A program made the translations under genes and the position numbers. Below the pieces are notes generated by a model that saw only the letters and a list, made by a program, of their open reading frames with translations, did no database searches and was not told the DNA's origin. From Methanotorris formicicus Mc-S-70 (lineage in GTDB: Archaea > AGJL01 > Methanococci > Methanococcales > Methanococcaceae), in assembly GCF_000243455.1 (NCBI RefSeq), contig NZ_AGJL01000014.1, positions 1-38,173 on the forward strand: 38,173 nucleotides of DNA. Direction: 5' to 3'. Shown here one piece after another: positions 8,191 through 13,414 of this stretch (positions are counted from its first letter, which is position 1; each line of letters opens with the position of its first letter).

Positions 8191-8236
8191 AATATTCACC
8201 TGCAATAATTAATTAAATAAATTGGACTAATATCTT

Positions 8237-8610
8237 TTAAGGAATTTGCAAGTTCTCTAACCTTCTCTTCATCTCATCTCTAACTTTTCTATAAACTTCA
8301 ATATCTTTTCCTTTTGGGTCTTCAATATTCCAACTTATATGTTTTTTTGCTGGAACGAAAGGGCAAGAGTTTAAACATCCCATTGTAACAACTACATCAA
8401 ACTCCTTAACTTTTTAACAACCTCATCTATTGTTTGGGGCTTTTCTTTTGCCTCTAAATTCTTTTCCCTTAAAACCTCAACAACTTTCTCATCAATGCCA
8501 TCTGTTTTCTCAACTCCCGCACTGAAGGCATTTAAACCAAATTTCTTTGCAAACGCCTCTGCCATTACACTTCTTCTTTTATTGTGGATACAAACAAATA
8601 AAACCTTCAT
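8237..8610 (-). pseudogene. ArsC-like low-molecular-weight phosphatase, frameshifted
   Basis: The N-terminal 66 or so residues match arsenate reductase/low-molecular-weight tyrosine phosphatases: VLFVCIHNKRRSVMAEAF contains the CX5R-S phosphate loop (C7 to R13). The frame then reaches a TAG in KKLRSLM. In the -1 frame the protein continues with EFDVVVTMGCLNSCPFVPAK, then SWNIEDPKGKD, and runs to a TAA at 8237-8239, exactly the expected second half of about 124 residues. The break is at a run of five A (minus strand; 8411-8415), where six would restore the frame. It is either a recent one-base loss, a sequencing error in a homopolymer, or a natural frameshift. It lies 8 bp behind the TatD-like gene and is probably in its operon. 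Confidence 0.8.
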
Positions 8611-9429: not shown

Positions 9430-9771
9430 TTATTTTAAGTAGAAATAGAATTTTTCATCACTTGTAAGGCAGTGTATTGTTGTCTGTCTAATTCCAAAGG
9501 TCATTCCACTCTCTTTTATAAGTTTTTTCTCCAATTCAATAGTTTCTCTTAATATTTCTTTTATATCCCCACTCAATTCAACATTTATTTTTGGTTTTTC
9601 CCCAATATACATTAGGTATTTTTCATATAACGCTTCAACATCCTTCATTTGACTAACAGCAATATCATCATATAATTTATTTTTATATTCCTCGATTGAT
9701 TTAAACTTACATATTAGTAAGAGTTTTATTTTATTATAGATGATTTTTTCCATTAATTCTTTTACTTCCAT
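9430..9771 (-). CDS. Unknown small protein (113 aa)
   Basis: I do not recognise this gene. A GGTGAAAAT ribosome binding site precedes the ATG, and codon use resembles that of its neighbours, so it is very likely real. The protein is predicted to be mostly helical and highly charged, rich in Lys and Glu, with no signal peptide or membrane segment. The C-terminal stretch MTFGIRQTTIHCLTSDEKFY is the least repetitive part and the best probe for homologues. It lies between the TatD-like gene and the cupin gene on the same strand. Confidence 0.7.
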   Translation of the reverse strand: MEVKELMEKIIYNKIKLLLICKFKSIEEYKNKLYDDIAVSQMKDVEALYEKYLMYIGEKPKINVELSGDIKEILRETIELEKKLIKESGMTFGIRQTTIHCLTSDEKFYFYLK

Positions 9772-9888
9772 ATTTTCACCATAAACTAAAAATTAAACCA
9801 AATAATATTTTAATTTAGATTTGTGATATAATTAATATGAAAAAATATTAAAATGTAATTACTTCATCGTACTCATTCAATTTTTAGT

Positions 9889-10239
9889 TTATTCGCACTT
9901 TATAGCCTCTTCAGGAGCATTTAATTTCTTTGGATGTGGAGCTTTTACTACAAAGAACTCCAATATATCAGAATTTAAGTTTTGAATGAGCATCTTTACA
10001 TTAAATGGGACATATACAATAGTTCCTTCTTTGTAGTTGTGTGGTTCTTGGTCTTCTAAGGTTAAAGTCATCTCTCCTTTGATAATTATCAAATGTACGT
10101 AAGAGTTTGAATAGTGTTTAGGCATTTGCTCTCCTTTTGGCAATATAATATGGTTGATTTGAACATGCTCGGTATTGACAATTTTTTCAACAACCTTTGT
10201 TATAGCATCTTTTTTAAATTCATAAACTTTTTCTATCAT
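9889..10239 (-). CDS. Cupin domain protein
   Basis: A 116-residue single-domain cupin. The first motif is visible as MPKHYSNSYVHLIIIKGEMTL and the second as GTIVYVPFNVKMLIQNL. The first motif keeps two His and a Glu that could bind a metal; the second motif lacks a clear His, so the site may be incomplete. GAGGTGATATAA precedes the ATG. It lies 72 bp downstream of hcp on the same strand and may be read with it, but its upstream gap has its own TATA-like ACTTTATAAC. Function is unknown; small cupins often act as sensors or sugar or metabolite binders. Confidence 0.8.
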   Translation of the reverse strand: MIEKVYEFKKDAITKVVEKIVNTEHVQINHIILPKGEQMPKHYSNSYVHLIIIKGEMTLTLEDQEPHNYKEGTIVYVPFNVKMLIQNLNSDILEFFVVKAPHPKKLNAPEEAIKCE

Positions 10240-10311: not shown

Positions 10312-11959
10312 TTATCCAACTAATTTTTTGATATCTTCATCAACTGTTGAGATTGTTGAGATTCCAAACTTCTCAACCAATACTTTCACCACATTTGGTG
10401 ATAGGAATGCTGGTATTGTTGGACCTAATGCTATATTCTTAACTCCTAAGTAGAGCAATGCTAATAAGACAGTAACTGCCTTTTGCTCATACCATGCAAT
10501 GTTGTAAGCGATTGGGAGTTCATTTATGTCCTCTAACCCAAGAACTTCTTTTAACTTCAATGCAACTACTGCTAATGAATAACTATCATTACACTGCCCA
10601 GCATCTAATACTCTTGGAATTCCATCAATGTCTCCTAAATCTAATTTAATGAATCTGTATTTTGCACATCCACATGTCAATATAACTGTGTCTTTTGGTA
10701 ATTTCTTAGCAAATTCAGTGTAGTATTCTCTTGTCTTGTGTCTTCCATCACATCCAGCCATTACAACGAATTTTCTTATCTTTCCGCTTTTAACGGCTTC
10801 AACTATCTTATCTGCCAATGCTAAAACTTGATTATGAGCGAATCCTCCAACGATTTTTCCTTCTTCAAGTGGTGTTGGTGGTTTACACTTTTTAGCGTGT
10901 TCAATAACTTCTGAGAAGTCCTTAGTTCCATCTTCTCTTACAGGAATTCTCTTCAATCCAGGATAGCCAACTTCATTTGTTACATAAACTCTATCTTTGT
11001 ATGAGTCTTTTGGTGGAACTAAACAATTTGTTGTCATAACTATTGGACCGTTGAATTTCTCAAACTCCTCTTTTTGGAATGGCCATGAACCTCCATAGTT
11101 TCCTACAAAGTGTTCATATTTCTTAAAGAATGGATAATAATGGGCAGGTAACATCTCAGAGTGTGTATAAACATCAACTCCTGCATCTTTACTTTGCTCT
11201 AATAACTGCTCTAAGTCCTTTAAGTCATGACCACTAATCAATAATTCCTGGTCTGTCTCTAACTCCTAAGTTAACTTCAGTTATTTCTGGATGTCCATAA
11301 GTTTCAGTGTTTGCTTTGTCTAATAATGCTAATGTTTCTACTGCATATTTTCCTGTTTCCATTGCTAAGTTAAAGAGTTCATCAGCATCTTTACTATCAA
11401 CAAGTTTTGTCATTGCTCTAACTATAAACTTATGGATTTCTTCATTGTTATAGCCGAGATGCATTGCATGGCTTAAATAGGCACCAATTCCCTTAATCCC
11501 ATAAGTTATAAGTTCTTTTAAAGACCTTATATCTTCATTATCCTCTGCTAATACACTAACTTCTTTTGCTTTTGATAATTCTATTATGTCATTATCATTT
11601 TCATAATTCCATGTTGCACAGTGAGGAAGTTCTTCTTTATTTAAATTGGTTTTTTCAATAACTTTTTCCCTCAAAGTGACTCCTTTCTTTATCCAATCTA
11701 TTACATCTTTATCGTCAAAATTGACATTTGTGATTGTTACAAATAATGCCTTTGGTATGTATTCCATAACTTCATCATCTAAGTAGTTACCCTTATTACA
11801 TGCATAGCATAAACCTTTTATAGTATAAACCAATAAATCTTGAAGGTTTGCTACATTATCTTTCTTCCCACAAACCCCCACTACTGTACATCCTTCATTT
11901 CTTGCAGCCTCTTGGCATTGGAAACAGAACATATTTGTTGGTCTTGGAGTGTATTCCAT
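10312..11959 (-). pseudogene. hcp: Hybrid-cluster protein (hydroxylamine reductase), frameshifted
   Basis: Hcp carries a 4Fe-4S cluster and an unusual Fe-S-O hybrid cluster; it reduces hydroxylamine in vitro and acts in nitric-oxide stress in bacteria. The N-terminal 240 residues (11959-11234) contain C12-X2-C15-X8-C24-X5-C30 and end prematurely at a TAG after RDRPGIID. The C-terminal 308 residues continue from [15 protein letters not shown] to the stop at 10312, with [38 protein letters not shown] and [10 protein letters not shown], which hold hybrid-cluster ligands. Together the halves make the normal length of about 549 residues. One extra A at about 11242 (GGAATT-A-TTGATT) breaks the frame. 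Both halves look unmutated otherwise, so the lesion is recent, an assembly error, or bypassed. GGTGAAAAT precedes the start. Its promoter shares a 22-bp element with that of the CGGC gene upstream. Confidence 0.9.
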
Positions 11960-12050
11960 ATTTTCACCTATTAAATTTTTTAATTGTAAGCCAATCCTTT
12001 ACGAGAGCATTTTAGATTGCACTTTACAATTAATTTTTTCTTTTTCTATC

Positions 12051-12072
12051 ATATAAATAGGTTTTTGACCAT
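12051..12072 (-). promoter_or_regulatory. hcp promoter with shared TATA-proximal element
   Basis: On the minus strand, ATGGTCAAAAACCT is followed by ATTTATAT, a TATA box about 92 bp upstream of the hcp start. The same 22-bp block, with only two differences, is at 13269-13290 in front of the CGGC gene. Identity extends well beyond a TATA box and BRE, so a specific regulator is likely to bind here. Confidence 0.6.
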
Positions 12073-12155
12073 CTTTTTTTAGAAATTTGGACAATTAGTA
12101 TTTACAGCCATGGAGATGTTAGATATAATTATTATGAATAATTTTAGTTTTAGTA

Positions 12156-12839
12156 TTACTCTAACACTTTTCCATCAATTGAAATAACATGCTTTTTTAT
12201 TTCACAATCAATCCCCTCAAGTGCCTTTTTTACTAAGTTATACATGCTATGACAGCAAGGAACGCTCATTATTACAACATCAACCTTTTTTATGTTGTTT
12301 AATTTAACAATTGCTCTTATTTTCTCCATATATCCAGAAGTGTCATCCAATTTGGGACATCCAATAGCCAAAACCTTTTCTTTTAAGAATTTTTTGTGGA
12401 AATTAGCATAGGCGAATGGAACACAGTCCGCTGCAATAATAAGTTCGGCATTTTTGAAGTATGGGGCAGTTGGATTCAATAGATGAAGTTGTATAGGCCA
12501 ATTCATTAACTCTGAACTTATTTCTACATCATTATCTTCTTCTGATTTTTCCCTTTTCAATGTCATTGCCATTGAACCAGGACATTTATGTCCTGAATGT
12601 TGGTGTTCATCAACTTCAATTTCTTCTTTTGTTATTTTTATTGCATCTACTGGGCATACATCTAAACATGTTCCTATTCCATCGCAATAAACTTCTTTTT
12701 CTTTATTAACCTTAACCTTTTTAGTTTCTGGGTCTGGAATTAGAATATTTTCTTCACATGCTTTAACACATAGCCCGCATTCTTCATAACCAAGACACTT
12801 ATCTTGGTCGACTTCAATTCTATATCTCATTATTTTCAT
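12156..12839 (-). CDS. Iron-sulfur ferredoxin-type protein, probable Hcp partner
   Basis: A 227-residue protein. The N-terminal ferredoxin domain has C-X5-C-X2-C-X3-C (from CLGYEECGLCVKACEENI) and then CDGIGTCLDVCP, where the usual fourth cysteine is replaced by Ile. A GHKCPGS motif follows. The C-terminal domain has NWPIQLHLLNPTAPYF, ADCVPFAYANFH, AIGCPKLDD and a final PCCH. This two-part family is often found beside hcp in anaerobes and is thought to supply it with electrons (inference from context). The start is the ATG at 12839, because GGTGG lies 5 bases before it; the longer frame begins with TTG inside that site. It is 59 bp downstream of the CGGC gene with no strong promoter between, so the two probably form an operon. 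Confidence 0.88.
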   Translation of the reverse strand: MKIMRYRIEVDQDKCLGYEECGLCVKACEENILIPDPETKKVKVNKEKEVYCDGIGTCLDVCPVDAIKITKEEIEVDEHQHSGHKCPGSMAMTLKREKSEEDNDVEISSELMNWPIQLHLLNPTAPYFKNAELIIAADCVPFAYANFHKKFLKEKVLAIGCPKLDDTSGYMEKIRAIVKLNNIKKVDVVIMSVPCCHSMYNLVKKALEGIDCEIKKHVISIDGKVLE

Positions 12840-12898
12840 AAATACCACCAATTTAAATATCCAAATTTATCTAAGAAATAAAAGATTAAAGTTTTGAT

Positions 12899-13219
12899 TT
12901 AGAAGTGAGAACCAATTACAACTTTTGCCCCCATCTTTTCAATCTCCCCCTTCATTTCTTCGACATACCTGCATTTTGGTTTAAGTGCATCCATGCAGGT
13001 TGCAAAGTGAACAACTTCCAATCCATGCTTTTCTATTAGTTGTTTTATTTGATTCAATCCTAATCTTCCTGGACATCCATCACATGTTATCATGGTTAAG
13101 AACTCAACATCCTCATAGTCCTTAAATGTGTCTTTCTTGTTTAATGCTGCTGTCACACAACCTACTGCAGGGCAAGTCTTTGCCGCACTGTCGCACCTTA
13201 AAATTGCAACTTTTGTCAT
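12899..13219 (-). CDS. CGGC-domain-like protein
   Basis: A 106-residue protein with the layout of the CGGC family (about 100-110 residues, several invariant cysteines proposed to bind metal or act in redox). Visible cysteines: RCDSAAKTCPAVGC at the N-terminus, MITCDGCPGR in the middle where the family name motif CGGC lies, FATCMDALKPKCRYV near the C-terminus. The central motif is CDGCPG rather than CGGC. GGTGAAAAA precedes the ATG. It is the first gene of a pair with the ferredoxin and shares its promoter element with hcp. The biochemical role of the family is not established. Confidence 0.78.
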   Translation of the reverse strand: MTKVAILRCDSAAKTCPAVGCVTAALNKKDTFKDYEDVEFLTMITCDGCPGRLGLNQIKQLIEKHGLEVVHFATCMDALKPKCRYVEEMKGEIEKMGAKVVIGSHF

Positions 13220-13268
13220 TTTTTCACCATATTTATTTTTATTGACAAATAATATGCAGTATTTAATA

Positions 13269-13290
13269 ATATAAAAAGATTTTTGACCAT
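13269..13290 (-). promoter_or_regulatory. CGGC-ferredoxin promoter, same element as hcp
   Basis: On the minus strand, ATGGTCAAAAATCT is followed by TTTTATAT, a TATA box about 50 bp upstream of the CGGC start. Twenty of 22 positions equal the block in front of hcp at 12051-12072. The flanks on both sides diverge, so this is not simply a recent duplication of a large segment. Confidence 0.6.
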
Positions 13291-13414
13291 TTTAACTTAA
13301 AAAAATAGATAATAATTATTTTTTTGTTAAAGATTGAAGATATAATTTTTATGAAATAATAAAAGAATCGTAGGAATTTTTGAATGTAATTTTTAACCCA
13401 TAACAAAAGTTAGG

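Follow-up and report, generated by a model that had tools for sequence, protein, structure and literature searches.

A three-part promoter arrangement common to hcp and a CGGC-ferredoxin unit in Methanococcales, with a NikR-like protein as candidate regulator

In Methanotorris formicicus Mc-S-70 the gene for the hybrid cluster protein (hcp) and the unit encoding a CGGC-domain protein and a ferredoxin-like protein are preceded by the same three-part promoter arrangement, whose architecture and spacing are conserved in most hcp promoters of Methanococcales and which is accompanied in that order by a NikR-like protein, both co-occurring with it and encoded in its neighborhood. We consider it probable that these genes form part of a small Methanococcales regulon for the handling of nitrogen oxides, served by an operator-promoter and having as its likely regulator the adjacent NikR paralog, which lacks the nickel ligands. 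The regulon so proposed would comprise hcp, the CGGC-ferredoxin unit, a gene of 113 aa, a DUF166-like gene and, where present, narK-nas-fsr. The shared element and its candidate regulator provide a testable link between hcp and the genes of nitrate transport and reduction in methanogens; and if the regulator is indeed a repurposed NikR, a metal sensor can switch its signal and yet retain its fold and DNA spacing.

The 22-bp Block as Part of a Larger Promoter Arrangement

The stretch of DNA analyzed, hereafter the window, has 38,173 nucleotides and is contig 14 of a 1.82-Mb Methanococcales genome in 121 contigs (G000). The original prediction had pointed to a 22-bp block upstream of hcp (12051-12072) that recurs upstream of the CGGC gene (13269-13290) with 20 of 22 positions identical, and both the identity and the coordinates proved exact: this pair is the best ungapped 22-mer common to the intergenic regions 11960-12155 and 13220-13414. 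On the coding strand the block reads ATGGTCAAAAA-C/T-CT-A/T-TTTATAT, thus spanning the TATA box and the ATGGTCAAAAA upstream of it. The composite pattern ATGGTCAAAAANCYNTTTATA, with zero to two mismatches, is found in the genome at these two sites only; five further sites have three mismatches, which sites we did not take as regulon members, and a third exact match to RTTTTTGACCAT, located within a coding sequence on contig 12, was dropped.

Upon dinucleotide shuffling of both intergenic regions, an identity of at least 20/22 was reached in 6 of 5000 trials (p about 0.001), which frequency makes the match significant for one pair of promoters, though not decisive if many AT-rich promoter pairs are compared, in which circumstance a chance match would be possible. 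The reading that the two AT-rich promoters of the window are similar by chance could draw on those six shuffles and on the many promoter pairs that are comparable; but the conservation and spacing of the elements in relatives and before other genes of the regulon have already refuted that reading, to which we attach practically no probability.

The sequences flanking the two blocks had been described as different, which description was mistaken. The block is the TATA-proximal part (e3) of a larger arrangement common to hcp and the CGGC gene, in which TTCATAATAATTATATC (e1) lies about 67 bp upstream of GGTCAAAAATCTTTTTATA (e3), with a weaker copy (e2) between the two at about 33 bp; in the window, e1, e2, and e3 are all present in both promoters at equal spacing (Table 1). 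Neither the upstream elements nor the adjoining gene for the candidate regulator figured in the original prediction. Among the hcp promoters of relatives, those of most Methanocaldococcus and Methanotorris genomes, and of some others, have the start of e1 66-68 bp upstream of e3; in the two Methanococcus genomes with hcp this distance is 33 bp. The weaker e2 is located 33-34 bp upstream of e3. A distance of 21-22 bp, equal to two helical turns, separates the T-C step of e2 from that of e3; this is the peak for the correctly anchored promoters and agrees with a separate comparison of the hcp promoters.

Gene Order in the Window

Table 1. Genes and promoter elements of the window that are considered in the text.
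Feature	Position	Strand	Remarks
NikR-like RHH + ACT-type regulator gene, 135 aa	13415..13822	-	Candidate regulator; Pfam RHH_1 + NikR_C
e1 of CGGC promoter	13337..13355	-	TTCATAAAAATTATATCTT; offset -66 from e3
e2 (middle) of CGGC promoter	13304..13322	-	AAAATAATTATTATCTATT; weaker e1 copy, offset -33
e3 of CGGC promoter	13267..13289	-	TGGTCAAAAATCTTTTTATATTA; overlaps BRE/TATA; contains most of block 13269-13290
CGGC-domain protein gene, 106 aa	12899..13219	-	Pfam PF08821, E 1.5e-25
Ferredoxin-like 4Fe-4S protein with C-terminal domain, 231 aa	12156..12851	-	Second gene of CGGC unit
e1 of hcp promoter	12120..12138	-	TTCATAATAATTATATCTA; offset -67 from e3
e2 (middle) of hcp promoter	12086..12104	-	AAATACTAATTGTCCAAAT; offset -33
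e3 of hcp promoter	12049..12071	-	TGGTCAAAAACCTATTTATATGA; contains most of block 12051-12072
hcp (hybrid cluster protein, hydroxylamine reductase family)	10312..11959	-	Pfam Prismane halves; two ORFs
Cupin-domain gene	9889..10239	-	3' of hcp, same strand; also after hcp in many relatives
Third e1 copy, upstream of 113-aa gene	9823..9841	-	TTCATATTAATTATATCAC; e2, e3, TATA missing
113-aa gene	9430..9771	-	Regulon member in relatives by promoter evidence

The hcp product is a putative class I hybrid cluster protein, both Prismane halves being matched, whose gene is split in this assembly. A one-base frameshift near 11240 divides the gene into two ORFs: the stretch 11234-11241 has one extra base (GGAATTATTG versus GGAA-TATTA in the relatives G001 and G035), and the gene is intact in relatives. 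The extra base may be either an error of the draft sequence or a true frameshift. Orthologs of the ferredoxin-like gene adjoin hcp in several genomes. The 113-aa product matched no family in either Pfam or NCBIfam. Between its gene and the cupin-domain gene, G001 and G035 have several small genes, apparently TusA/DsrE-like sulfur-relay genes, that are missing from the window (9772-9888), which loss goes along with that of e2, e3, and the TATA box of the 113-aa promoter; the names TusA/DsrE-like and DUF166-like were assigned only by reading translations. At 8205-8610, moreover, a gene resembling those for low-molecular-weight phosphatases and arsenate reductases is interrupted by single-base gaps with respect to G035 and G001.

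Conservation and Content of the Proposed Regulon

A bipartite PWM (e1+e3), whose training set consisted of only the hcp promoters of other genomes, gave scores of 45.4 and 43.4 for the hcp and CGGC promoters of the window. Scores of 27-45 were obtained for the five of five intact CGGC promoters, the ferredoxin promoter of G023, the 113-aa gene in three of three relatives, narK (3/3), and the DUF166-like gene (2/2), each promoter, the two of the window included, surpassing all 300 of its own shuffles (0/300); and the matches keep their spacing, with e1 and e3 separated by 66-67 or 33 bp. The ferredoxin promoters of G019 and G020, in which genomes both hcp and the regulator are lacking, scored below the shuffle mean and contained no element. 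For the 113-aa gene, the e1+e3 promoter is intact in G001, G035, and G034; compared to the first two, the promoter in the window has retained e1 and lost e2, e3, and TATA. An element copy belonging to the ferredoxin gene itself was discarded, since none was found upstream of that gene in G000, G001, G035, or G034, the gene instead following the CGGC gene.

An order-wide model (R1), constructed from sequence only, identified the hcp and CGGC promoters as the two best matches in their own genome (E 6e-17 and 5e-14, the next being at 0.01), and in the other genomes all the matches at E<1e-9 were located at promoters of the cluster. The exact GTCAAAAATCTTTTTATA was found nine times in 36 genomes, on eight occasions at regulon promoters; the lone exact e3 match off the cluster (G021:C12:19387, L187) is in a genome devoid of hcp and the regulator.

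The comparison with the hcp promoters of relatives had been set beforehand as the test of common control, with absence of the block there to count against it; and the element was present. Since the architecture occurs in most Methanococcales hcp promoters and in all five intact CGGC promoters, the claim that both units share a control element, and probably one regulator, is well supported by the comparison across Methanococcales.

Alternatively, the block might constitute a strong core promoter alone—an extended BRE plus TATA, derived from a promoter duplication or from strong expression—without dedicated control; and AAAAATCTTTTTATA does resemble a BRE/TATA sequence. The strong and constitutive expression of hcp in M. 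thermolithotrophicus (PMC10210160) would also fit such a promoter. Against this explanation, however, the GTC extension hardly occurs outside the promoters of the regulon, the distal element is kept at a fixed spacing, and the architecture recurs before genes as unrelated as narK, the 113-aa gene, and the DUF166-like gene, all of which observations render it quite improbable compared to a dedicated operator.

A NikR-Like Protein as Candidate Regulator

The genomes with an ortholog of the NikR-like protein (59-100% identity) coincide with those that contain hcp: 26 of the 36 have both, and the remaining 10 have neither. In M. jannaschii, a species described as genetically tractable (PMC13381448), the ortholog is located at G004:689096-689503. 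The gene mostly lies beside hcp, the CGGC gene, or narK, and in most genomes directly before a motif-bearing promoter. Such co-occurrence could reflect linkage to hcp; the gene is kept as well where it is unlinked from hcp, as in G003, G009, G013, and G031.

The best score of the protein with the NCBIfam model for nickel-responsive regulators was 84.9 bits, below the cut-off of 111, and its AF2 model (pLDDT 86) matches NikR structures. The canonical H-x-H...C nickel ligands are absent from the aligned positions in all 26 orthologs, and Cys96 is invariant in 26/26. The genome also encodes a canonical NikR with the ligands, and the RISIS beta strand is identical in the two proteins; a third NikR paralog (L221, G000:C24) is likewise without the canonical nickel ligands. 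Two turns separate the half-sites recognized by NikR tetramers (PMC5385501); the half-site spacing of 21-22 bp fits a NikR-type tetramer and makes e2 together with e3 a candidate binding site, as judged by DNA spacing only. A scan of contigs beyond Methanococcales returned only remote NikR-type matches, with at most 35% identity over most of the protein, and in the open-access literature searched we found neither an archaeal hcp regulator nor a role for a NikR paralog of this kind.

The shared operator might nevertheless be real and be bound by another transcription factor, the NikR-like protein traveling with hcp while having some other function. The evidence tying the protein to the motif is correlational; the hcp promoters of G009, G013, G027, and G031 carry a weak element or none, although the regulator is present in these genomes along with hcp; and the motif is absent before the NikR-like gene, for which reason autoregulation was discarded. 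Yet the distribution of the protein is that of hcp throughout the 26 genomes and persists where the two genes are unlinked, the motif-bearing promoter that its gene directly precedes is the one of narK in G003 and G007, and the half-site spacing is that of a NikR-type tetramer, in view of which we consider a different factor unlikely and retain the NikR-like protein as the candidate.

A Possible Link to Nitrate Assimilation

Only three of the 36 genomes contain narK, and in all three the element precedes narK-nas(-fsr). In G007 the genes nikR-like, narK, nas, fsr, CGGC, and hcp are contiguous, as are narK, nas, fsr, CGGC, the ferredoxin gene, and hcp in G034; in both G003 and G007 the NikR-like gene is immediately before narK. 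The NCBIfam assignments—NarK, a molybdopterin reductase of the Nas/Fdh type, and an F420-dependent sulfite/nitrite reductase—support the identities of these proteins, as do published data (PMC13381448). The three genomes match species of that same study, which reported a Nas split by a stop in M. thermolithotrophicus, as in G034, along with growth of M. infernus on nitrate and an increase of about 5 log2 in the expression of the narK operon of M. thermolithotrophicus under N2 fixation (PMC13381448). A text search of that article found promoter, NikR, and hybrid cluster unmentioned, with "regulat" occurring in one reference only.

The original prediction of a hydroxylamine/NO or redox stress regulon fared unevenly. 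The context supports a handling of nitrogen oxides because narK-nas(-fsr) has this element before it in 3/3 of the genomes with narK; against this, hcp in M. thermolithotrophicus was highly expressed with no effect of the nitrogen source, and the authors of that work, who stated that the function of the encoded protein in methanogens is unknown, judged a link to nitrate assimilation less probable (PMC10210160). The main tension is between this constitutive expression of hcp and a regulon devoted to stress alone.

All three narK promoters contain GGAA-N6-TTCC downstream of TATA (L199:3595-3608, L200:3165-3178, L203:6501-6514); no such motif was noticed among the hcp and CGGC promoters that were inspected. 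We take GGAA-N6-TTCC to be the NrpR-type operator of methanogen nitrogen-assimilation genes, so that these are probably NrpR sites, distinct from the element described here. Their presence in the narK promoters would account for the upregulation of narK, and not of hcp, under N2 fixation, and that rise of narK may be due to NrpR alone.

Proposed Mechanism and Known Systems

We infer that a tetramer of the NikR-like protein would occupy a pair of half-sites spaced by 21-22 bp, the first in e2 and the second in the GGTC part of e3, which latter half-site overlaps BRE/TATA, with e1, where present, as a further binding site about 33 bp upstream. The protein might in this manner adjust the access of TBP and TFB at the BRE; and, e3 overlapping BRE/TATA, we slightly favor repression by covering the BRE over activation. 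The signal would be a nitrogen oxide or a redox change, perhaps perceived at the invariant Cys96. A broader reading, which we advance tentatively as a possibility, is that of a NikR-family regulator that has abandoned nickel sensing, whose invariant Cys senses NO, hydroxylamine, or thiol redox, and which controls hcp, the CGGC-ferredoxin unit, and nitrate assimilation in hyperthermophilic methanogens, thereby being an archaeal counterpart of HcpR from outside the CRP family.

The bacterial HcpR regulon, under a CRP/FNR-family protein, includes hcp, the frdX ferredoxin, and in some species nar/nrf (PMC1274295). Here, as there, the regulator (in the present case the candidate) is often encoded beside hcp and co-occurs with it, a common site precedes hcp and a ferredoxin-like gene or its operon, and genes of nitrate and nitrite reduction belong to the regulon in some species, by the evidence of the narK-nas promoters (3/3). 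Unlike HcpR, however, the present candidate is archaeal and of the RHH/NikR type, and the DNA element does not resemble the HcpR sites TTGACnnnnGTCAA or GTAACnnnnGTTAC. With NikR the candidate shares fold and sequence family—an RHH DNA-binding domain and a C-terminal ACT-like domain—as well as the RISIS strand, and its proposed half-sites have the NikR spacing of two turns; but it lacks the His/Cys nickel ligands, has its invariant Cys elsewhere, and would target hcp and nitrate genes rather than nickel transport. The narK-nas-fsr operon of nitrate assimilation in Methanococcales (PMC13381448) would fall within the regulon and, in two genomes, is physically inside the cluster.

Other Loci Near or Resembling the Proposed Regulon

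Two weaker R1 matches were discarded. At G034:C1:1663131-1663238 (-) (L202; E 1e-4) the minus-strand gene behind the match was not evident, the upstream flank resembling the narK promoter; and the match at G004:675874 (L201), at a locus for a 4Fe-4S membrane protein and a flavodiiron protein, was too weak (E 0.003); it lies before a NapH-like gene. In G023 (L211), genes for NapH-like membrane 4Fe-4S, flavodiiron-like, and rubrerythrin-like proteins, so named from their translations, are near the regulon. Finally, in G004, which genome we take to be that of M. jannaschii, the CGGC gene that precedes hcp has decayed to a remnant interrupted by several stops (L042, L058).
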